From NCBI GenBank assembly GCA_018457305.1, contig JAGYHM010000062.1:1-6764 (forward strand): 6,764 nucleotides of DNA. Direction: 5' to 3'. Below the pieces are notes generated by a model, which worked only from the letters and a program-made list of their open reading frames with translations, did not search any database and had not been told where the DNA came from. The stretch is from Fusobacterium sp. Its GTDB lineage: Bacteria > Fusobacteriota > Fusobacteriia > Fusobacteriales > Fusobacteriaceae. A program made the translations under genes and the position numbers. Positions within the stretch are counted from its first letter, which is position 1, and each line of letters begins with the position of its first letter. Positions 1 through 6,764 of this stretch are shown piece by piece.

Positions 1-233
1 GCTTCAGATATAACTTCTGTTAATTCTTCCATTTGAGGTTCTTCTTGTAATTTCACTAATTCATTTTCAACCGCTTGTAATGTCATAGACATATTAGTTC
101 CAGTATCTCCATCTGGTACTGGATAAACATTTAAATCGTTTAATACATCAGCATACTTTGACAGCCATCTACTTGCTGCTATAAATAATTTCATTAGTCT
201 CACTGGTGTTAAAGTTTTTATTTCAATTTTCAT
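1..233 (-). CDS. fakA: Fatty acid kinase catalytic subunit FakA-like (Dak2/DhaL domain), N-terminal part
   Basis: The first 77 codons of a gene that runs off the window at base 1. The translation has the Dak2/DhaL nucleotide-binding signature LNVYPVPDGDTGTNM at residues 34-48, whose aspartates bind Mg-ATP in this family. Family knowledge: FakA phosphorylates fatty acids carried by FakB, feeding exogenous acyl chains into phospholipids. The LNVYPVPDGDTGTN form is typical of FakA/YloV rather than the glycolytic DhaL, but the C-terminal domains that would settle this are outside the window. The start at 233 was chosen because GGAGG lies 8 nt upstream. An in-frame ATG at 248 would overlap the preceding stop as TAATG, but it has no Shine-Dalgarno and would place GGAGG inside the gene. 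Only 14 nt separate it from the xre stop, so it is very probably co-transcribed with xre. Confidence 0.85.
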   Translation of the reverse strand, partial: MKIEIKTLTPVRLMKLFIAASRWLSKYADVLNDLNVYPVPDGDTGTNMSMTLQAVENELVKLQEEPQMEELTEVISE

Positions 234-247
234 CTGTATTTCCTCCA

Positions 248-802
248 TTAAAAAGTTGGTGGGCTAACTACCCATAGTGCCTTCACTTGTTTTTTTGTAT
301 TATTTTTAAATCTATGTTTTATATTAGACTTAAAATATAGCATATCTCCTTGTCTTAGATGATATGTTGTATCCTCTATATAAATATCTAATTCTCCCTC
401 TACAATATAGACAAATTCTTCTCCATCATGTGAATAAAAATCTCGTCCACTTTCTCCCTTGGGAGCTATTTCATACATAATTGGCTCCATATTTTTTTCT
501 CTTGAATTTATCAAAAGAGATAATTTTGTATTAGAACCTTTACTTTCTGCATACTTTATATCTTCACTTCTTACAAACTTAACATTATTTTCTATTTCAT
601 CTTCATCATCTATAAGATAACTAACTCTTACATCCAAAGCATTTGCTATCTTTTTTAAATTCTCTATTGACGGCGAAGCCTTTCCTTGCTCTATTTGAGA
701 TAAAAAACTTGCCGAAAGTTCTACTCTTGTTGCAAGTTCTCTAAGTGAAATTTTTTTATCATTTCTACTTTTCTTTAATTTTTCTCCTATCGTTCTCGTC
801 AT
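248..802 (-). CDS. XRE-family transcriptional regulator with C-terminal cupin domain
   Basis: A complete 184-residue protein. Residues about 8-63 form an HTH_3/XRE DNA-binding domain (KKISLRELATRVELSASFLSQIEQG is spread over about residues 16-40, followed by SPSIENLKKIANAL). Residues about 108-177 form a cupin_2 beta-barrel with H125, E128/E129 and H163 as possible ligand or metal contacts (HDGEEFVYIVEGEL, then GDMLYFKSNIKHRF). This two-domain layout is that of the PuuR-type family, in which the cupin senses a small molecule and controls DNA binding; the ligand here cannot be read from sequence. The Shine-Dalgarno AGAGG overlaps the cinA stop codon, giving a 12-nt gap and probable translational coupling. 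Its place inside the operon suggests local or autogenous regulation, which is inference only. Confidence 0.9.
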   Translation of the reverse strand: MTRTIGEKLKKSRNDKKISLRELATRVELSASFLSQIEQGKASPSIENLKKIANALDVRVSYLIDDEDEIENNVKFVRSEDIKYAESKGSNTKLSLLINSREKNMEPIMYEIAPKGESGRDFYSHDGEEFVYIVEGELDIYIEDTTYHLRQGDMLYFKSNIKHRFKNNTKKQVKALWVVSPPTF

Positions 803-814
803 ATATCGTAACCT

Positions 815-2017
815 CTACTTCATATTTTTTAAATTTTTAAATAACAAATACAATGAATACATCATTGTTCTTTGTCTAATTCTATTTCGCTCTCCTTTAA
901 AAATTTTCTTTGTTACTTCTATTTTATCGTTTAGTTTAATTCCTATATACACCAAGCCCACTGGTTTTTCTTCTGTTCCACCGTTAGGTCCAGCAATTCC
1001 TGTAACTGATATTCCAATATCTGTCTGTAAATTTTTAAGCATTTCTTTTGCAACTTCTTGACTAACAGCACCATATTTCTTTAATATTTCTTCACTTACT
1101 CCCAATCTTTCTATTTTTGAAATATTACTGTATGTTACCAGTCCTTCTTTGAAATAAGAAGAAATACCAGAAACCCCTACTAATTTACTTGCAATCATTC
1201 CACCAGTACAAGACTCTACTGTAGAAATTGTGAGTTTTTTCTCTTTTAAATAGCCAAAAATTTTATTCTCTAATCTATCTGTATCTTCACCTATTATAAA
1301 ATCACTTATTCTATTATATAACTTTTTTTGAATTTTTTCCACTTTCTTTTTATTTTCTATTTTTGTTTGCAGTCTTATCAGTATTCCGTAGTCTTTTACT
1401 AAAAATTCATAAAAAATATCTTCTTCTGTAAAAATATCTTTTACAGTTTCTTCCAACATACTTTCACCCATACCATAAGTGATTATATCTTTTATGTAAA
1501 TTTTACTTTTTAAATTATTTTTTTCTGAAAAATATTTTAAAAATTTTGGAAACATATTTTTTAACTCATTTGGAAAGCCCGGAAAAGACGCTATGTTATC
1601 TATAAAAGTTGCAGGTGCCATACCCACATCATTTTTAAAAGAAATTGCTCCCTCTGGTTTTTTTATTTCTTTAATATTAGATTTCGTTAAATTTAATTTT
1701 CTTTCACTATATTTTTTAGTTAATTCTTTTAATTCTTCCTCATCAACTATCATTTTTTTATTTAAAAATTTTGCAATACTCTCTTTTGTTATATCGTCAT
1801 CAGTAGGTCCAAGTCCACCAGTTGTAATTATTAAATCTACATTCTTTTTGGCATAGTCTAAAACTTTTATTATTTCTTCTTCAACATCTCTTGCAAACAT
1901 TTTAAATTCTATTTCTACACCTATTTTATTTAATTGTTCTGCTATGTAAATACTGTTTGTATCTATCATAGCACCATTTAAAAGTTCTGTTCCAATTAAA
2001 ATTATTCCTGCTTTCAT
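815..2017 (-). CDS. cinA: CinA: MoaB/MogA-like N-terminal domain plus nicotinamide-nucleotide amidase (PncC) domain
   Basis: A complete 400-residue protein, about the usual length for full CinA. Residues about 4-165 are the molybdopterin-binding-like (COG1058) domain: LIGTELLNG at 7-15, TTGGLGPTDDD at 65-75 and the FPGFPNE segment at 145-151. A linker KH-like region follows. Residues about 250-395 form the CinA C-terminal domain: VESCTGG at 267-273, VTYSN at 294-298 with K301, and TGIAGPNGG at 339-347 followed by PVG. Family knowledge: the C-terminal domain deamidates nicotinamide mononucleotide to nicotinate mononucleotide for NAD recycling, and the N-terminal domain of full-length homologues has ADP-ribose pyrophosphatase activity. 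The old competence name is historical. The start is supported by AGGAG 6 nt upstream. It lies 74 nt after pgpA, a common gene pairing in bacteria, and is followed closely by the xre regulator. Confidence 0.95.
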   Translation of the reverse strand: MKAGIILIGTELLNGAMIDTNSIYIAEQLNKIGVEIEFKMFARDVEEEIIKVLDYAKKNVDLIITTGGLGPTDDDITKESIAKFLNKKMIVDEEELKELTKKYSERKLNLTKSNIKEIKKPEGAISFKNDVGMAPATFIDNIASFPGFPNELKNMFPKFLKYFSEKNNLKSKIYIKDIITYGMGESMLEETVKDIFTEEDIFYEFLVKDYGILIRLQTKIENKKKVEKIQKKLYNRISDFIIGEDTDRLENKIFGYLKEKKLTISTVESCTGGMIASKLVGVSGISSYFKEGLVTYSNISKIERLGVSEEILKKYGAVSQEVAKEMLKNLQTDIGISVTGIAGPNGGTEEKPVGLVYIGIKLNDKIEVTKKIFKGERNRIRQRTMMYSLYLLFKNLKNMK

Positions 2018-2091
2018 ATTTTTTCTCCTATTTTAATACCTTAAACTTGTATAGGGTATAATCTCTGTTTTTCCTTAAATTTAGGCTTTTA

Positions 2092-2598
2092 TTAAAAAAA
2101 GATTGTCCAAATGCAAACTAAAATAAAGTTTCCTATTATTCCAGCTAAGAAATCATCTAAAACTACTCCCACACCATTTTCTAGTGATTGTGATCTATTG
2201 ATAGGTCCTATTTTAGTTATATCTAAAATTCTAAAAATTACAAATGCCAAAACTATTGCTATTAAATTTGATTTTACTCCCACGGGATTTATTAAAAATA
2301 GAGTTGTTAAAAAACCTAAAACCTCATCTATAACAACTGCTTGTGGGTCTTCCTTTTTATAAATTTCTTTTTCACAAATATCTGCAACATAAACTGATAC
2401 TGCAAAAAATGTCATTAAAAAGAAAAAATAAAAAGAATTATACAACATCATATTAGGAAAAAATCTTTTCATATAAGATAAAATTATAAAAACTGGTATT
2501 CCTCCCAATGTTCCAAAAGTTCCCGGCATAAAAGGAAATTCTCCCAAGCCAAACCAAGTTCCTAAATTTTTTATCATATTATTTTCAATATTTTTCAT
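2092..2598 (-). CDS. pgpA: Phosphatidylglycerophosphatase A
   Basis: A complete 168-residue integral membrane protein. It carries all the PgpA family landmarks: GLGEFPFMPGTFGT at residues 17-30, DPQAVVIDEVLG at 84-95 (with D91 and E92), the FRILDITKIGPI segment at 122-133, and GVGVVLDDFLAG at 142-153. Hydrophobic stretches near 32-45, 53-75, 93-122 and 149-168 are consistent with about four membrane spans. Family knowledge: it removes the terminal phosphate of phosphatidylglycerophosphate to give phosphatidylglycerol, with the active site at the inner membrane. Its start overlaps the U32 stop by one base (TAATG), with GAGGAG just upstream inside the U32 3' end, so translation is probably coupled. 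A 74-nt gap without a clear hairpin or promoter separates it from cinA. Confidence 0.95.
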   Translation of the reverse strand: MKNIENNMIKNLGTWFGLGEFPFMPGTFGTLGGIPVFIILSYMKRFFPNMMLYNSFYFFFLMTFFAVSVYVADICEKEIYKKEDPQAVVIDEVLGFLTTLFLINPVGVKSNLIAIVLAFVIFRILDITKIGPINRSQSLENGVGVVLDDFLAGIIGNFILVCIWTIFF

Positions 2599-5075
2599 TA
2601 GTACACTCCTCTTTTGTAATTGTATTCTCTATATTCACCTTTTTTACTTTTCAATTGTAATAAAACTTTTTCTATTTCTTCTTGACTTTCATTTGTAAAT
2701 TCTAAGACTACTCTATCTACTCCTAAACTCTTTATATCTTCCATTATATTTATAATATTTAGAGGTTTTTCCAAAAATATTTCTGTCCCATAATTATTTT
2801 TAGTTATAAAGAAATTATCACCTTGTTCATTGCTTATAACTTTTTCCGAAGATAAGTCCACATCAATCGTCATTCCCTTTAATTTAGAGTAGACTAAAAG
2901 AGATTTTTGCAGTCTTGTATTTCCTAAAGTTTTAATTTTTGAAAAGCTTATTTCTGGTGAAATTATAAAAGAATCTAATTTTTCTATTTTTTCCAAAACT
3001 TTCATCGAATAAGAATTAACTATATTCATATTCCAATTTAACATTACTTTTTCATTTTTATTTTCTAGTAATTCATAAAAATTTGAAGCCAACGGATTTT
3101 CTAAATTATGCTGACTTAATTTAGACTGCTTTGCCATATCATAAGTTCTAAAATAAATATTTGAAATATTATATTTTTCTTTTTGACTTTCAATAAAATC
3201 TTTTTGCTCCGAATTATTAACTAAAATATCTATTGCTAATTCTTCTTTGGGCTCGCCACGGACTAAAGTCCTGCTCGCATTAAGCGACGCAGGGGCGTCG
3301 CTCTCCCCTTTCAAAACAAGTTCTTCTTTTCTATCGTTTAAATTTAATAAAGTTTCTTCTTTATTTATTGCTCTTGTGGTTTCTTCTTTTCTATCGTTTA
3401 AATTTAATAAAGTTTCTTCTTTATTTATTGCTCTTGTGGTTTCTTCTTTTCTATCGTTTAAATTTAATAAAGTTTCTTCTTTATTTATTGCTCTTGTGGT
3501 TTCTTCTTTGGGCTCGCCACAGACTAAAGTCCTGCTCGCATTAAGTGATGCAGGGTTTGGGGGCGTAGCCCCCACAAGAGAGGGCGACAGTCCCAAAGGG
3601 ACGCTGTCGCCCCCTAATTTTCTTCTAAAAGATAAAATAAGTTTTTCTCTAAATTTTTCCACTGCCTCTCTTTTTATATTTTTCAATTCTGATAGAGGTA
3701 AAAATATATTTTCATCTTTTTTTATCTCTATATCCCTTATTATGAATTCACTATCTCCAACTGCTGATAATTTTTCTTTTATCTCATCCACACTTAAAGA
3801 TTTATTTTTTGCAAGCTCTACTATGCTTTGCCCTTCTATTTCTACTGATATATTTTTTTCTTTTAAAGAAAATTTTATTTTTTCTCCTAATCTTGCTGAA
3901 AATTCTCCATAAATTTCCAATTTCTTATCAGTAATTTTTAAATTTTTAGCCACCTCATCATTTATAGTTTTATTAAAATTTTTATAAATAAATTTAGTTC
4001 CCATTGGATAATCCATTTTAATTATTTCTCCAATACTTGCTTCTTTTCTATTTTCTTTTACTCCCTTAATATCTATACGGCTTAAATTTGTTCCACCTAA
4101 AACCTTATAATCTTTAGATAAAAAACTAAGTCCATCGCCACAGATTAAACTTGTTTCTAATTTTAATTCACCTTTTTTTATTTCTCCAACTTTTTCTCCA
4201 ATATTATACGAGTAATCTTTGTTCATTATGTTTCTATTTGTTCCATAGAAATAACCTTTTGAATAACCTCTATTGAAAATTTTACTTGTATTTTCTTCTG
4301 TTTCATTCTCTTCTATTAAATTTCTAAAATAAGAAACTGTTTCATAAACATAGGTAACATCTTTCATTCTACCTTCAACTTTTATACTTTCAACACCAAT
4401 TTCTTTAAGTTTTTTTATTTCTTCCAAACCATATAATTGGTCTTTAGGACTTAAAAAATAAGATTTCTCTCCACAAGAACCTTTATATTCTTTTCTGCAA
4501 GGTTGGGCACACATTCCACGATTTCCGCTTCTTCCACCGATGAAACTGCTCATATAGCAATTTCCAGAAATAGATATACATAAAGCCCCTGACACAAAAA
4601 CTTCAAGTTCCATATCTGTATTTTCTCTAATTTCTTTTATTTCCTCAAAAGATAATTCTCTTGCTAAAACTATTCTCTTAAAACCTAAAGTTTTCAAAAA
4701 ATTTATCTCATAATAATTTCCAATCGTCATCTGTGTACTGCCGTGAATTTCAATATCAGGGAAATTTTCGTGTATATATTTAGCCAAACCTATATCTTGG
4801 ACAATTATTGCATCTAAACCATATTCATACAAGACTTTAATCTTATCGTATAAGGTTTCAATTTCTGAATTTGACATAATTGTATTTAATGTCAAGAAAA
4901 TTCTTGTCCCCCTTGTATGAGCATAATCTATTGCAGTTTTTACTTCTTCCATAGTAAAATTTTTTGCATTTCTTCTTGCTCCATAACCTTTTAATCCTAA
5001 GTAAATTTCATCTGCCGTCGCCTTTATGGCTGAATAAAATCTTTCCATATTTCCAGCAGGTGCTACAATTTTCAT
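2598..5075 (-). CDS. Peptidase U32-family protein, probable RNA (23S rRNA/tRNA) hydroxylase, RlhA/TrhP-like, with a 125-aa repeat insertion
   Basis: A complete 825-residue protein. Residues 1 to about 300 form the U32 domain: APAGN at 5-9, GSTQMT at 112-117, the U32 signature EVFVSGALCISISGNCYMS at 158-176, GGRSGNRGMCAQPCR at 180-194, and KVEGRMKDVTYV at 232-243. C166, C173, C189 and C193 are conserved and are likely metal or Fe-S ligands. Residues about 300-480 resemble the DUF3656-type extension of RlhA, ending in LPLSELKNIKREA. A second barrel-like segment starts near 613. Family knowledge: E. coli RlhA hydroxylates 23S rRNA C2501 and TrhP homologues hydroxylate tRNA uridine-34; true protease activity is doubtful. 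Which RNA this one targets cannot be decided here. Residues 488-612 are an in-frame repeat-rich insertion; without them the protein would be 700 residues, close to RlhA-type lengths. AAGGAG lies 9 nt before the ATG. It heads the probable operon with pgpA. Confidence 0.88.
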   Translation of the reverse strand: MKIVAPAGNMERFYSAIKATADEIYLGLKGYGARRNAKNFTMEEVKTAIDYAHTRGTRIFLTLNTIMSNSEIETLYDKIKVLYEYGLDAIIVQDIGLAKYIHENFPDIEIHGSTQMTIGNYYEINFLKTLGFKRIVLARELSFEEIKEIRENTDMELEVFVSGALCISISGNCYMSSFIGGRSGNRGMCAQPCRKEYKGSCGEKSYFLSPKDQLYGLEEIKKLKEIGVESIKVEGRMKDVTYVYETVSYFRNLIEENETEENTSKIFNRGYSKGYFYGTNRNIMNKDYSYNIGEKVGEIKKGELKLETSLICGDGLSFLSKDYKVLGGTNLSRIDIKGVKENRKEASIGEIIKMDYPMGTKFIYKNFNKTINDEVAKNLKITDKKLEIYGEFSARLGEKIKFSLKEKNISVEIEGQSIVELAKNKSLSVDEIKEKLSAVGDSEFIIRDIEIKKDENIFLPLSELKNIKREAVEKFREKLILSFRRKLGGDSVPLGLSPSLVGATPPNPASLNASRTLVCGEPKEETTRAINKEETLLNLNDRKEETTRAINKEETLLNLNDRKEETTRAINKEETLLNLNDRKEELVLKGESDAPASLNASRTLVRGEPKEELAIDILVNNSEQKDFIESQKEKYNISNIYFRTYDMAKQSKLSQHNLENPLASNFYELLENKNEKVMLNWNMNIVNSYSMKVLEKIEKLDSFIISPEISFSKIKTLGNTRLQKSLLVYSKLKGMTIDVDLSSEKVISNEQGDNFFITKNNYGTEIFLEKPLNIINIMEDIKSLGVDRVVLEFTNESQEEIEKVLLQLKSKKGEYREYNYKRGVY
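3240..3294 (-). repeat. 55-bp direct repeat, copy 1 (inside the U32 gene)
   Basis: It matches 3501-3555 with three mismatches (3260, 3285, 3288). On the minus strand it encodes the end of PASLNASRTLVRGEPKEE (residues 595-612). It can fold: GGACT (3260-3264) pairs with AGTCC (3267-3271). CCTGC-TCGC (3270-3278) pairs with GCGA-GCAGG (3284-3293, one bulged C). A competing perfect 7-bp stem GCGACGC/GCGTCGC (3284-3290 with 3295-3301) also exists. It is much richer in G and C than the surrounding gene. Confidence 0.9.
3321..3509 (-). repeat. 60-bp tandem repeat, three perfect copies plus a 9-bp remnant
   Basis: Units are 3321-3380, 3381-3440 and 3441-3500, with the first 9 bases of a fourth unit at 3501-3509. 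The copies show no mismatches. Each unit encodes KEETTRAINKEETLLNLNDR (residues 523-582), a charged, probably unstructured segment in which KEE occurs twice. Because the unit is a multiple of three, gain or loss of copies would keep the U32 frame open. Perfect identity suggests recent expansion. Confidence 0.97.
3501..3555 (-). repeat. 55-bp direct repeat, copy 2 (inside the U32 gene)
   Basis: The partner of 3240-3294, on the other side of the 60-bp tandem array and in the same orientation. It encodes PASLNASRTLVCGEPKEE (residues 508-525). Of the three base differences from copy 1, two are synonymous and one changes Arg to Cys. The CCTGC/GCAGG hairpin (3531-3535 with 3550-3554) is retained, with one G-C pair replaced by a G-T wobble. 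Confidence 0.9.
3558..3614 (-). repeat. GC-rich two-hairpin element translated within the U32 gene
   Basis: Hairpin A is TGGGGGC-GTA-GCCCCCA at 3558-3574. Hairpin B spans about 3582-3613: GGGCGACAG pairs with CTGTCGCCC, enclosing an inner TCCC-AAA-GGGA stem. Both are in the reading frame, encoding residues 488 to about 501 (hairpin B) and the following VGATPPNP (hairpin A side). Hairpin B is a close relative (29 of 33 positions) of the intergenic sequence at 5243-5275, and the order A then B is the same in both places. Unlike the intergenic copy, hairpin B here is not followed by a T run on the coding strand, so it should not terminate transcription. Confidence 0.85.
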
Positions 5076-5112
5076 ATTTTATATCTCCTTAATTACTTTA
5101 TCTATTCTACAC

Positions 5113-5132
5113 TTATTAGAAAGCCCTAATAA
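5113..5132. promoter_or_regulatory. Inverted repeat overlapping the U32 operon -10 box (possible operator)
   Basis: TTATTAG (5113-5119) and CTAATAA (5126-5132) form perfect 7-bp arms around a 6-nt centre. The left arm covers most of the -10 hexamer and the right arm lies in the promoter spacer. A dimeric repressor bound here would block the promoter. The arms could also form a hairpin at the DNA level, but they lie upstream of the predicted transcription start. The binding protein is unknown; the XRE-cupin regulator of the same operon is only a candidate. Confidence 0.45.
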
Positions 5133-5143
5133 ACAAATGACAA
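5115..5143 (-). promoter_or_regulatory. Predicted sigma70-type promoter of the U32-pgpA-cinA-xre-fakA run
   Basis: Reading the minus strand: -35 TTGTCA (5138-5143), a 17-nt spacer, and -10 TCTAAT (5115-5120), each matching five of six consensus bases. Transcription would start near 5108, leaving a leader of about 30 nt with AAGGAG at 5085-5090 before the U32 ATG. It lies downstream of the GC-rich hairpins, so the operon can be expressed independently of coaE. Confidence 0.65.
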
Positions 5144-5147
5144 TTAC

Positions 5148-5161
5148 GGAACTAACGTTCC
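5148..5161. promoter_or_regulatory. Inverted repeat just upstream of the U32 -35 box
   Basis: GGAAC-TAAC-GTTCC, perfect 5-bp arms, ends 4 nt upstream of the -35 hexamer at 5138-5143. The position suits an activator or operator site, but the arms are short and it could equally be part of a dispersed repeat. Between it and the hairpins lies an A8...T8 tract (5178-5208) that may bend DNA or act as an UP-like element. Confidence 0.35.
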
Positions 5162-5214
5162 TACCATATACACACTCAAAAAAAATATTTATAAAATTCA
5201 TTTTTTTTAAGAGG

Positions 5215-5275
5215 GTGTCGGGGCTATCGCCCCGACACAAAAAGGGCAACAGTCCCATAGGGACGCAGTTGCCCC
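5215..5275. repeat. Intergenic GC-rich two-hairpin element
   Basis: Hairpin A is a perfect 10-bp stem GTGTCGGGGC-TATC-GCCCCGACAC (5215-5238). Hairpin B (5244-5274) pairs GGGCAAC with GTTGCCC around an inner GTCCC-ATA-GGGAC stem. The same A-then-B order and a near-identical B occur inside the U32 gene at 3558-3614, which marks this as a copy of a dispersed palindromic repeat and not just a terminator. Its G+C content stands out sharply from the AT-rich flanks. Confidence 0.85.
5239..5275 (-). terminator. Probable intrinsic terminator after coaE, formed by hairpin B
   Basis: On the minus strand the nested GGGCAAC...GTTGCCC hairpin is followed directly by TTTTT (5239-5243), 12 nt after the coaE stop. 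This is the expected shape and place for a rho-independent terminator, recruited from the repeat element. One internal A-A mismatch weakens the outer stem slightly. Confidence 0.65.
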
Positions 5276-5287
5276 AAAATAATTAAC

Positions 5288-5869
5288 TCATTTTTTTATT
5301 AAATTTTCAACTTTTTCTAAAAGTTCCTCTAAACTTCCATTATTTTCTATAATATAATCTGATTTTTTCATTTTTTCTTCATTTGATAATTGAGATGAAA
5401 TTATTTTTTTTGCAAGTTCTTCACTCACATTATCTCTCTTTTTTATTCTTTGAATTTGAACACCATAATCTACTACAACTAAAATAATTTTATCACATAG
5501 TTTATCAATTCCACTTTCAAATAAAAGGGGAACATCAAAAACAATAGGCGAAGTGAACGTACTTCCCCCCTTTTTTATATTTTCAAAAAATTTATAGACT
5601 TTTGGATGAATTATAGAATTTAAAATTTTTAATTTCTCTGAATTTTTAAAAACAATCTCTTTCAATTTATTTCTATCTATATTTTTTTTATTATTTCCTT
5701 CTAAAATTTCTTCTCCAAAATTTAAAATTATTTCTTTTTGAACTTCTTCTGTTTCAAAAATTTCTTTTGCAATTTTATCTGCATCATAAATTTTAAATTT
5801 TTTTTCTGCTAAATATTTTGATACAGTACTTTTTCCACTTGCTATTCCACCAGTTAATCCGATTATCAT
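5288..5869 (-). CDS. coaE: Dephospho-CoA kinase
   Basis: A complete 193-residue cytosolic enzyme, close to the family's usual length of about 200. It phosphorylates the ribose 3'-hydroxyl of dephospho-CoA with ATP, the last step of CoA synthesis. Visible motifs: P-loop GGIASGKST at 7-15, DADKIAKE at 29-36, the HP pair at 88-89, DVPLLFE at 112-118, RIKKRD at 141-146, and IIENNG at 173-178. The start is backed by AAGAGG 7 nt upstream. It has its own extended -10 promoter and a terminator-like hairpin downstream, so it is probably monocistronic. Oddity: the loop before DVPLLFE (KKGGSTFTSP, residues 99-108) is encoded by A6G6 followed by a short inverted repeat, and looks a little longer than in E. 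coli CoaE. Confidence 0.95.
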   Translation of the reverse strand: MIIGLTGGIASGKSTVSKYLAEKKFKIYDADKIAKEIFETEEVQKEIILNFGEEILEGNNKKNIDRNKLKEIVFKNSEKLKILNSIIHPKVYKFFENIKKGGSTFTSPIVFDVPLLFESGIDKLCDKIILVVVDYGVQIQRIKKRDNVSEELAKKIISSQLSNEEKMKKSDYIIENNGSLEELLEKVENLIKK

Positions 5870-5901
5870 AAAAAAACCTCTTAAATTTATTTTTGTTTTA
5901 T

Positions 5902-5910
5902 ATTATACCA
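5902..5910 (-). promoter_or_regulatory. Extended -10 promoter element for coaE
   Basis: The minus strand reads TGG-TATAAT (TATAAT at 5902-5907, TG at 5909-5910), a consensus extended -10. No good -35 is seen at 16-18 nt upstream (TAAATT at best), which extended -10 promoters tolerate. The predicted start is near 5895, giving a leader of about 25 nt before the coaE ATG at 5869. It lies just downstream of the rpsO terminator. Confidence 0.65.
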
Positions 5911-5953
5911 TATCATATTTTTTAAATTTATTAAATTATAAAACTATTAAAAT

Positions 5954-5985
5954 ATAAATAAAAAAAGGAGAACTTTTGTTCTCCC
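5954..5985 (-). terminator. Intrinsic terminator of rpsO
   Basis: On the minus strand, GGAGAAC-AAAA-GTTCTCC (arms 5978-5984 and 5967-5973, perfect 7 bp) is followed by seven T residues (5960-5966) and then a further AT-rich tail. It begins 13 nt after the rpsO stop. Confidence 0.93.
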
Positions 5986-5997
5986 TTAAAATTTTGA

Positions 5998-6255
5998 TTA
6001 TTTTCTGATTCCTAATTTTGCTATTAGTGCTCTATATCCATCTAAGTCTTTCTTAGTTAGATAAGCCAATAATCTTTTTCTTTGTCCTACCATTTTTAAT
6101 AAACCTAATCTTGAGTGAAAATCTTTTTTATGCACTCTCAAGTGTTCTGTTAAATGGTTGATTTTTTCTGTTAAAAGAGCTATTTGTACTTCTGTTGAAC
6201 CAGTATCTGCTTCATTTTTTCCAAACTCTTTTATGATTTCTTCTTTTGTTCTCAT
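5998..6255 (-). CDS. rpsO: 30S ribosomal protein S15
   Basis: A complete 85-residue protein, slightly shorter than the usual 88-89 because of a shorter N-terminus. S15 is a primary 16S rRNA-binding protein of the small-subunit platform. The hallmark segments are [19 protein letters not shown] (residues 17-35), [18 protein letters not shown] (42-59) and the C-terminal LIAKLGIRK. The Shine-Dalgarno AGGAGG (6267-6272) lies 11 nt upstream of the ATG. A good promoter lies in the gap after ftsH and a strong terminator follows, so it is likely a single-gene unit. S15 represses its own mRNA in several bacteria; see the leader discussed under findings. Confidence 0.97.
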
Positions 6256-6338
6256 AGCTATTTTTTCCTCCTAAATATTATTATCTAAGCTAAGTAATAC
6301 ATAAGCTACTTGCAAAACTGAGCCTAAATTCCTTTGTA

Positions 6339-6367
6339 ATTCTATCATATTTTTTATTATTTTACAA
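6339..6367 (-). promoter_or_regulatory. Predicted promoter of rpsO
   Basis: The minus strand shows TTGTAA (6362-6367), a 17-nt spacer, and TAGAAT (6339-6344) preceded by TGA, that is, an extended -10. Transcription would start near 6332, giving a leader of about 77 nt before the rpsO ATG. No terminator hairpin is visible between the ftsH stop and this promoter, so some readthrough from ftsH is possible. Confidence 0.65.
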
Positions 6368-6377
6368 ATTTTATTTT

Positions 6378-6764
6378 TTATTTTTCACTTTCTTCTGTTT
6401 CAAATAATTTTGCTTGCTCTGTATCTTCTTTAATTTCTTTTATTTCACTTATTTCTTCAATAATTTTTTCTATATTTTCTTTCTTTAAATCTTCTTCTTT
6501 TTTATTTTCTTGTTTTTCTTTTTCTTCCTCTTGAGCCAGTAACTCTTCTGCTGTAATTTCACCTTCCATTATGGCTTCAAATTCATCTCCCATAATAGTT
6601 TCTTTTTCAAGTAAAACTTTTGTAACAGCTTCTAACTTATCTCTATGCTCATTTAATATATCTATTGCTTTTTTATAAGCATCATTGATGATTTTTCTTA
6701 TCTCATCATCAACTTCTTTTCCAGTTTGCTCACTGTAATATTTTCTTTGGAACATATCTCCATA
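6378..6764 (-). CDS. ftsH: ATP-dependent zinc metalloprotease FtsH, C-terminal 128 residues
   Basis: The gene enters from beyond base 6764 with the frame open to the window edge (Tyr-Gly-Asp before the first visible Met), so the Met at 6755 is internal. The text YGDMF, YYSEQTGKEVDDEIRKII, then LLEKETIMGDEFEAIMEG matches the last helices of the M41 peptidase domain of FtsH. The ATPase domain, the zinc site and the membrane anchors lie outside the window. Family knowledge: FtsH is a hexameric inner-membrane AAA+ protease that degrades misassembled membrane proteins and some regulators. After the conserved core there is a tail of about 55 residues very rich in Glu and Lys (from ELLAQEEEK to ETEESEK), probably disordered or coiled coil. 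The 122-nt gap to rpsO holds the rpsO promoter. Confidence 0.9.
   Translation of the reverse strand, partial: YGDMFQRKYYSEQTGKEVDDEIRKIINDAYKKAIDILNEHRDKLEAVTKVLLEKETIMGDEFEAIMEGEITAEELLAQEEEKEKQENKKEEDLKKENIEKIIEEISEIKEIKEDTEQAKLFETEESEK

Follow-up and report, generated by a model that had tools for sequence, protein, structure and literature searches.

GC-rich palindromic modules and tandem repeats in frame in the linker of a Fusobacterium U32-family gene

The best-known cases of palindromic repeats lying in frame in conserved genes come from Rickettsia and Wolbachia. The Rickettsia palindromic elements (RPEs) are described as being translated in frame, with the RPE-bearing enzyme Gmk still active and RPE-encoded residues tolerated at exposed places (PMC2229807, PMC3767692). 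The repetitive extragenic palindromes (REPs) of the GTAG and CGTC superfamilies are short GC-rich hairpins, single and clustered, that are reported mostly behind genes and also inside them, where repeat clusters encode 43 to 82 residues; insertions landing in flexible linkers or loops are suggested there to be neutral, and Fusobacterium is absent from the main text of that paper (PMC3733652). Open frames that join genes in frame are likewise described for the small palindromic elements Correia/NEMIS, ERIC and YPAL (PMC2229807). Here we describe an arrangement in Fusobacterium sp. (contig JAGYHM010000062.1, positions 1 to 6764; hereafter the window) in which a block of 125 codons lies in frame in the linker of a U32-family gene. 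Everything reported below rests on this single 6.8-kb contig. By analogy, the block behaves like RPEs and intragenic REPs and may be a variant of the in-frame palindromic repeat that is a member of neither family. A further parallel is offered by fungal mitochondria, whose GC clusters and double-hairpin elements are GC-rich hairpin modules, in some cases translated, within a very AT-rich genome; these are organellar and their sequences are unrelated.

The host gene and the parts of the block are as follows.

2598-5075, minus strand: U32-family gene, 825 codons without a stop, running from 5075 down to 2598; Pfam places Peptidase_U32 (PF01136) at residues 73-280 (269 bits) and DUF3656 (PF12392) at residues 363-479 (72 bits)
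3240-3614, minus strand: in-frame block, 375 bp, 125 codons, residues 488-612, no stop
3240-3294, minus strand: 55-bp GC-rich module, copy 1, with the head TTCTTCTTT (plus strand), which is AAAGAAGAA, KEE, in the gene
3295-3320, minus strand: 26-bp spacer, completing the hairpin at 3283-3302
3283-3302: hairpin with an 8-bp stem, most of which sits in module copy 1
3321-3500, minus strand: three 60-bp tandem units (TTRAINKEETLLNLNDRKEE), identical to each other, 23% GC
3501-3555, minus strand: 55-bp GC-rich module, copy 2, 95% identical to copy 1
3556-3614, minus strand: two-hairpin GC-rich stretch, 59 bp
3558-3574, minus strand: hairpin with a 7-bp GC-rich stem
3582-3612, minus strand: two-helix hairpin with 12 pairs, related to an intergenic copy at 5244-5274
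3620-3626, minus strand: TTCTTCT, which has 7 of the module head's 9 bases and falls within native FRRK codons immediately beyond the block

The modules add up to the whole block (55+26+180+55+59 = 375), and the 60-bp periodicity extends over 3321-3509. The original prediction, made from the letters of the window, had given the coordinates, the length, the stop-free 125 codons and the repeat structure correctly throughout. The two 55-bp copies differ at three sites, copy 1 always having G or C where copy 2 has A or T. The head TTCTTCTTT (Lys-Glu-Glu in the gene) occurs eight times in 3240-3509, at every module head, and twice elsewhere in the window, a distribution that fits module duplication by slippage or recombination between short direct repeats. 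A duplicated target site is a further possibility: the head stands at 3240 and 7 of its 9 bases recur at 3620, reflecting either a duplication or native KEE/RRK codons. Neither route is proven. Among the 25 longest pairs listed, no terminal inverted repeat joined the ends of the block. That the three 60-bp units are perfectly identical points to recent amplification, within an order of events that we infer.

The block was absent from all relatives examined. Of 7757 matches to the U32 protein, 120 were listed, one being the window's own protein; ASLNAS, RTLV and RAINKEE occurred in none of the other 119, whose lengths were 720 aa (96 proteins), 731 aa (21), 733 aa (1) and 734 aa (1). In the Fusobacterium nucleatum group, the U32 protein has 720- and 731-aa forms (P0015, P0020 and others versus P0003, P0004), set apart by an 11-residue in-frame stretch before residue 345 as numbered in the window's protein, away from the block. 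Among 61 Fusobacteriaceae genomes, 58 had a match to the N-terminal part, taken as the orthologue, and three had none among the matches listed. These 58 orthologues comprised 56 uninterrupted frames of 714-759 aa, one short frame (352) and one interrupted by TGA (G028:C1:2484766-2486246). The original prediction had reasoned that an old domain would appear in all orthologues; the block was in none of the 119 homologues or the 56 uninterrupted frames.

The site itself could be compared closely. DUF3656 ends at residue 479 and the block starts at residue 488, in the linker where it had been predicted to lie. In the three nearest genomes (G017-G019, 67-68%), matches ended at residue 488-495 and restarted at 606-610. 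Between the same landmarks the native linker measures 27 residues in the nearest relatives and 31 in P0002, versus 129 in the window, and the relatives' linkers differ from it in sequence. Presence of a native linker in the nearest relatives means that the block replaced it or was built onto it. The earlier statement that removal of the block leaves 700 residues suggests a clean insertion, which disagrees with listed homologues of 720-734 aa and the native linkers just described. Among the matches listed, P0002 was closest to the U32 protein (80% in the N-terminal part), followed by proteins of the F. nucleatum group (about 68%). An assembler misled by the repeats might have misjoined or multiplied sequence, a concern raised by the short contig and by 180 bp of perfect tandem repeat near short-read length, which may make the copy number uncertain. 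However, the two flanks, with 80.0% and 77.9% identity to P0002, come from one gene of one species, and the frame is kept over 125 codons, which a chance join would not produce; we give an assembly artefact little credence.

The GC-rich modules stand out in composition. GC content is 56% in 3240-3320 and 60% in 3501-3614, compared with 23% in the 60-bp unit and 27% in the window. Stretches of at least 60% GC over 40 bp numbered seven in the window and none in 29 of 32 relatives' loci; the exceptions were L001 (one), L024 (one) and L025 (eight), of which L024 and L025 come from GC-richer genomes, while L001 and L018 represent one genome. Scored in host codon usage, the GC-rich modules gave -0.574 (27 codons) and -0.47 (38 codons), below all native windows of equal length (1554 and 1477, respectively), whereas the 60-bp array scored +0.535, a value that native 20-codon windows also reach. 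A foreign look is thus confined to the GC-rich modules, and the array is host-like in codon usage; the original prediction had set the block as a whole apart from U32-family sequence. Both GC-rich modules are stop-free in two of six frames, the one used and one on the opposite strand. On the plus strand, a 221-codon open frame (3247-3912) runs antisense across the block and the U32 gene and is probably a by-product of composition.

Folding set the two GC-rich parts apart. As single-stranded DNA, 3501-3618 had a z-score of -4.34 (0 of 200 shuffles as stable) and 3240-3320 one of -1.91 (7 of 200); as RNA the values were -4.70 and -1.26, the latter equalled by 27 of 200 shuffles. Thus, the second part is strongly structured and the first weakly. 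Hairpins with a GC-rich stem of at least 7 bp numbered three in the 6.76-kb window versus eight in 400 kb of G017, two in 400 kb of G018, and one in 133.7 kb from 30 relatives' loci. A terminator scan of 2000-6000 flagged nothing in the block or at 5205-5282, and one site, 5987-5964, against 0.8 expected.

Two features outside the U32 gene, the recurrence of hairpin 3582-3612 and a palindrome in coaE, had been overlooked in the original prediction.

5205-5282, minus strand: double hairpin, intergenic between coaE and the U32 gene, directly behind coaE
5547-5570, minus strand: small GC-rich palindrome inside coaE, encoding GGSTFTSP

Within the double hairpin, 5244-5274 is a relative of hairpin 3582-3612, with 27 of 31 bases in agreement; the best shuffles reached 17 (downstream flank, 200 shuffles) and 20 (local GC-rich stretch, 5000 shuffles). 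Of the four differences, one pair exchanges G-C for A-T and leaves the stem intact. The neighbouring 5215-5238 forms a perfect 10-bp stem, and 5205-5282 folds with z-scores of -7.75 as single-stranded DNA and -7.31 as RNA. Its first hairpin is followed on the minus strand by TTTTT, and the terminator scan did not flag it. A small palindrome (GGAAC, loop, GTTCC) also lies at 5147-5161, upstream of the U32 gene (z -2.44, 5 of 200 shuffles as stable). The genes of the window follow one another on the minus strand as the end of an FtsH-like gene, rpsO, coaE, the U32 gene, a PgpA-like gene, cinA and an HTH-cupin regulator. In coaE, GGSTFTSP sits at a variable, mostly polar loop of 31 aligned relatives, one residue longer than in 20 of them and of the same length as in 11. 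In-frame 9-codon windows over this palindrome scored -0.43 and -0.42 in codon usage, second and third lowest among 1680, and its DNA fold had a z-score of -2.91 (1 of 200 shuffles as stable). The palindrome may be a second in-frame case but is not established as one.

With the second hairpin copy in hand, a purely local origin can be weighed, in which the linker grew through its own slippage and duplication, the hairpins are by-products, and there is no mobile or dispersed element. Such growth would agree with the native codon usage (+0.535) and perfectly tandem order of the 60-bp array and with the KEE repeats, which favour slippage. It is at odds with GC modules that are foreign in both codon usage and GC content, with a hairpin that recurs outside the gene, and with a 60-bp unit that showed no similarity when aligned to the linkers of five relatives (p 0.74). 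We consider it unlikely. The same alignment gave no support to a triplicated native linker as the source of the 60-bp array, a possibility suggested only by codon usage and composition.

As described for RPE-1 to RPE-7 and the Wolbachia palindromic elements, the locus has palindromic repeats between genes and in frame in a conserved gene of an AT-rich genome. The block lies in frame inside a conserved gene and is absent from the distant orthologues examined; as to repetition in and between genes, one hairpin is seen at two loci (27 of 31 bases) and the 55-bp module only inside the U32 gene. Unlike RPEs, it belongs to another phylum and is a mosaic of several modules with a tandem array; RPEs are also many per genome, and here there are two loci in 6.8 kb. 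The likeness is one of description, no sequence relation being known (RPE sequences were not compared), and in that sense of similar behaviour the earlier characterization as analogous to but distinct from RPEs was apt. As in the GTAG and CGTC REPs, the hairpins are short, GC-rich, and both single and clustered, and the stem lengths at 3283-3302 (8 bp), 3558-3574 (7 bp) and 5215-5238 (10 bp) lie within the REP range of about 6-13 bp. REPs of these superfamilies also occur in many copies per genome, with a RAYT transposase for the GTAG types. Unlike those REPs, they show no unpaired GTAG or CGTC at a hairpin end: the block and the spacer contain a single GTAG, which lies in the loop region of 3558-3574, and four CGTC (both strands), all of them inside hairpins. 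Correia/NEMIS, ERIC and YPAL elements have terminal inverted repeats, mostly with TA target duplications, which are not established for the block. The literature listings retrieved for repeats in Fusobacterium contained no account of such elements, a negative confined to those searches.

At the protein level, an AlphaFold2 model built with 27 sequences gave a predicted local distance difference test score (pLDDT) below 50 throughout residues 490-610; the adjoining residues scored 79-94 on the N-terminal side and 89-95 on the C-terminal side. A helix was drawn over the tandem array at a mean pLDDT below 40. The model thus assigns the block no confident structure, and the block is probably a long, floppy linker between folded parts. 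A selected functional addition, such as a tether that binds RNA or ribosomes, or a hairpin with a regulatory role in the mRNA, would accord with the charge of the KEE-rich repeats and with the strong mRNA hairpin in 3501-3618 (RNA z -4.70), but is very improbable for a stretch that is absent from all relatives examined, lacks confident structure, and contains no Pfam domain above cut-off.

Glu, Cys and Cys are reported to be needed in RlhA and TrhP (PMC6599085), and a CX6CX15CX3/4C motif is described for the U32 domain (PMC6747719). E158, C166, C173, C189 and C193 are invariant among the 27 aligned sequences and conform to this motif plus the conserved Glu of U32 hydroxylases. With the catalytic residues kept, the U32 enzyme looks intact. 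The best fold match in the PDB was the U32 protein Mk0906 (5d88, E 6e-7), and a PDB sequence search gave no match at E 0.01. From the family and the conserved motif it is plausible that the protein modifies RNA, as had been proposed, but the nearest NCBIfam models fell below their cut-offs, TrhP with 209 bits versus 534. A block so large relative to the native linker might not be translated as such, either in a decaying gene or as a stretch that is spliced out or bypassed. Against this stand 825 codons without a stop or frameshift, the intact catalytic residues, and an Rfam search of the window in which no family, intron families included, reached its gathering score, and we regard non-translation as very improbable.

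The explanation we favour, with moderate confidence, is that lineage-specific GC-rich palindromic elements were tolerated in frame in the linker and multiplied by recombination between AAAGAAGAA repeats. The host lineage would carry a private, genome-wide and mobile family of small GC-rich palindromic elements, and one or two copies may have inserted into the flexible linker that follows DUF3656 and precedes the C-terminal part, in a phase that kept the frame open. The AAAGAAGAA (Lys-Glu-Glu) codons at module borders would then have provided the microhomology for module duplication by slippage or recombination, with two GC-rich copies around three identical 60-bp units as the outcome. The whole protein would be made, expressed and working, and tolerance of the block would follow from its translation into an unstructured tether, which joins folded parts of an enzyme whose catalytic motif is preserved.

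Several observations weigh against recombining palindromic elements of this kind. Nothing points directly to transposition, the insertion cannot be dated from the long-range evidence, and a single contig is the sole source. Within its 6.8 kb, the 55-bp module is known only inside the U32 gene, and 3240-3320 folds hardly better than its shuffles. The compensatory change between 3582-3612 and 5244-5274 is not significant, with 229 of 500 shuffles equal and two sequences compared. Finally, no convincing relative of the GC-rich elements was found in 98 genomes of the phylum, phages, plasmids or viral contigs, so the element family rests on two loci only.

These searches covered several collections. 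Phages and plasmids had no match to the block at E 1e-5, and the spacer drew 28 plasmid records at E up to 10 (lowest E shown 0.04), none counted as relatives. Five patterns had no match in viral contigs. A viral short-palindrome pattern with 32 loci was set aside as chance, the flanks being unlike those of the window by eye and 26 of the 32 coming from loci of at least 51% GC. The whole block gave 16 matches in 14 of the 61 family genomes (best E 5e-6); all fell within 3312-3509, in or at the edge of the AT-rich array, and were therefore not counted as relatives of the GC-rich elements. Of two patterns run on the same 61 genomes, the first hit one (G053, two mismatches; reversed control 2) and the second none. 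A pattern search of the 98 phylum genomes found nothing, and the GC-rich module matched 16 of the 98 only at chance level (E 0.17 to 0.96). A generic hairpin, GGGGCNNNGCCCC, was present in 18 of the 98, with at most six sites each and none in G017-G019. Looking for the encoded peptide in other proteins, as the original prediction had suggested, returned only the window's own protein (6080 candidates) or nothing (6 candidates). G017 has a short-hairpin family of its own with another sequence (TTGCAGGNGCAC, a hairpin around GGCTNYGCC, then ACCC; L101:14523-14902, L103:18743-19119); its several copies lie almost always between predicted frames, and some are spaced by about 90 or 180 bp. Genomes of F. 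nucleatum were not in the searched collections. The U32 proteins of G017-G019 are 70-78% identical to three F. nucleatum group proteins, which share 97%; G017-G019 thus lie outside that group, and no genome of it seems to have been searched.

More tentatively, the elements may be an undescribed, coding-competent GC-rich palindromic family that is spreading in one Fusobacterium lineage, in genes and spacers alike, and building disordered linkers by Lys-Glu-Glu module shuffling. On that account the U32 gene, and perhaps coaE, would be stop-free in-gene entries within 7 kb. An independent case in Fusobacteriota would show that in-frame palindromic repeats need no obligate intracellular life, and would provide a concrete example of repeat DNA that lengthens a protein linker without, as it appears, destroying the enzyme.

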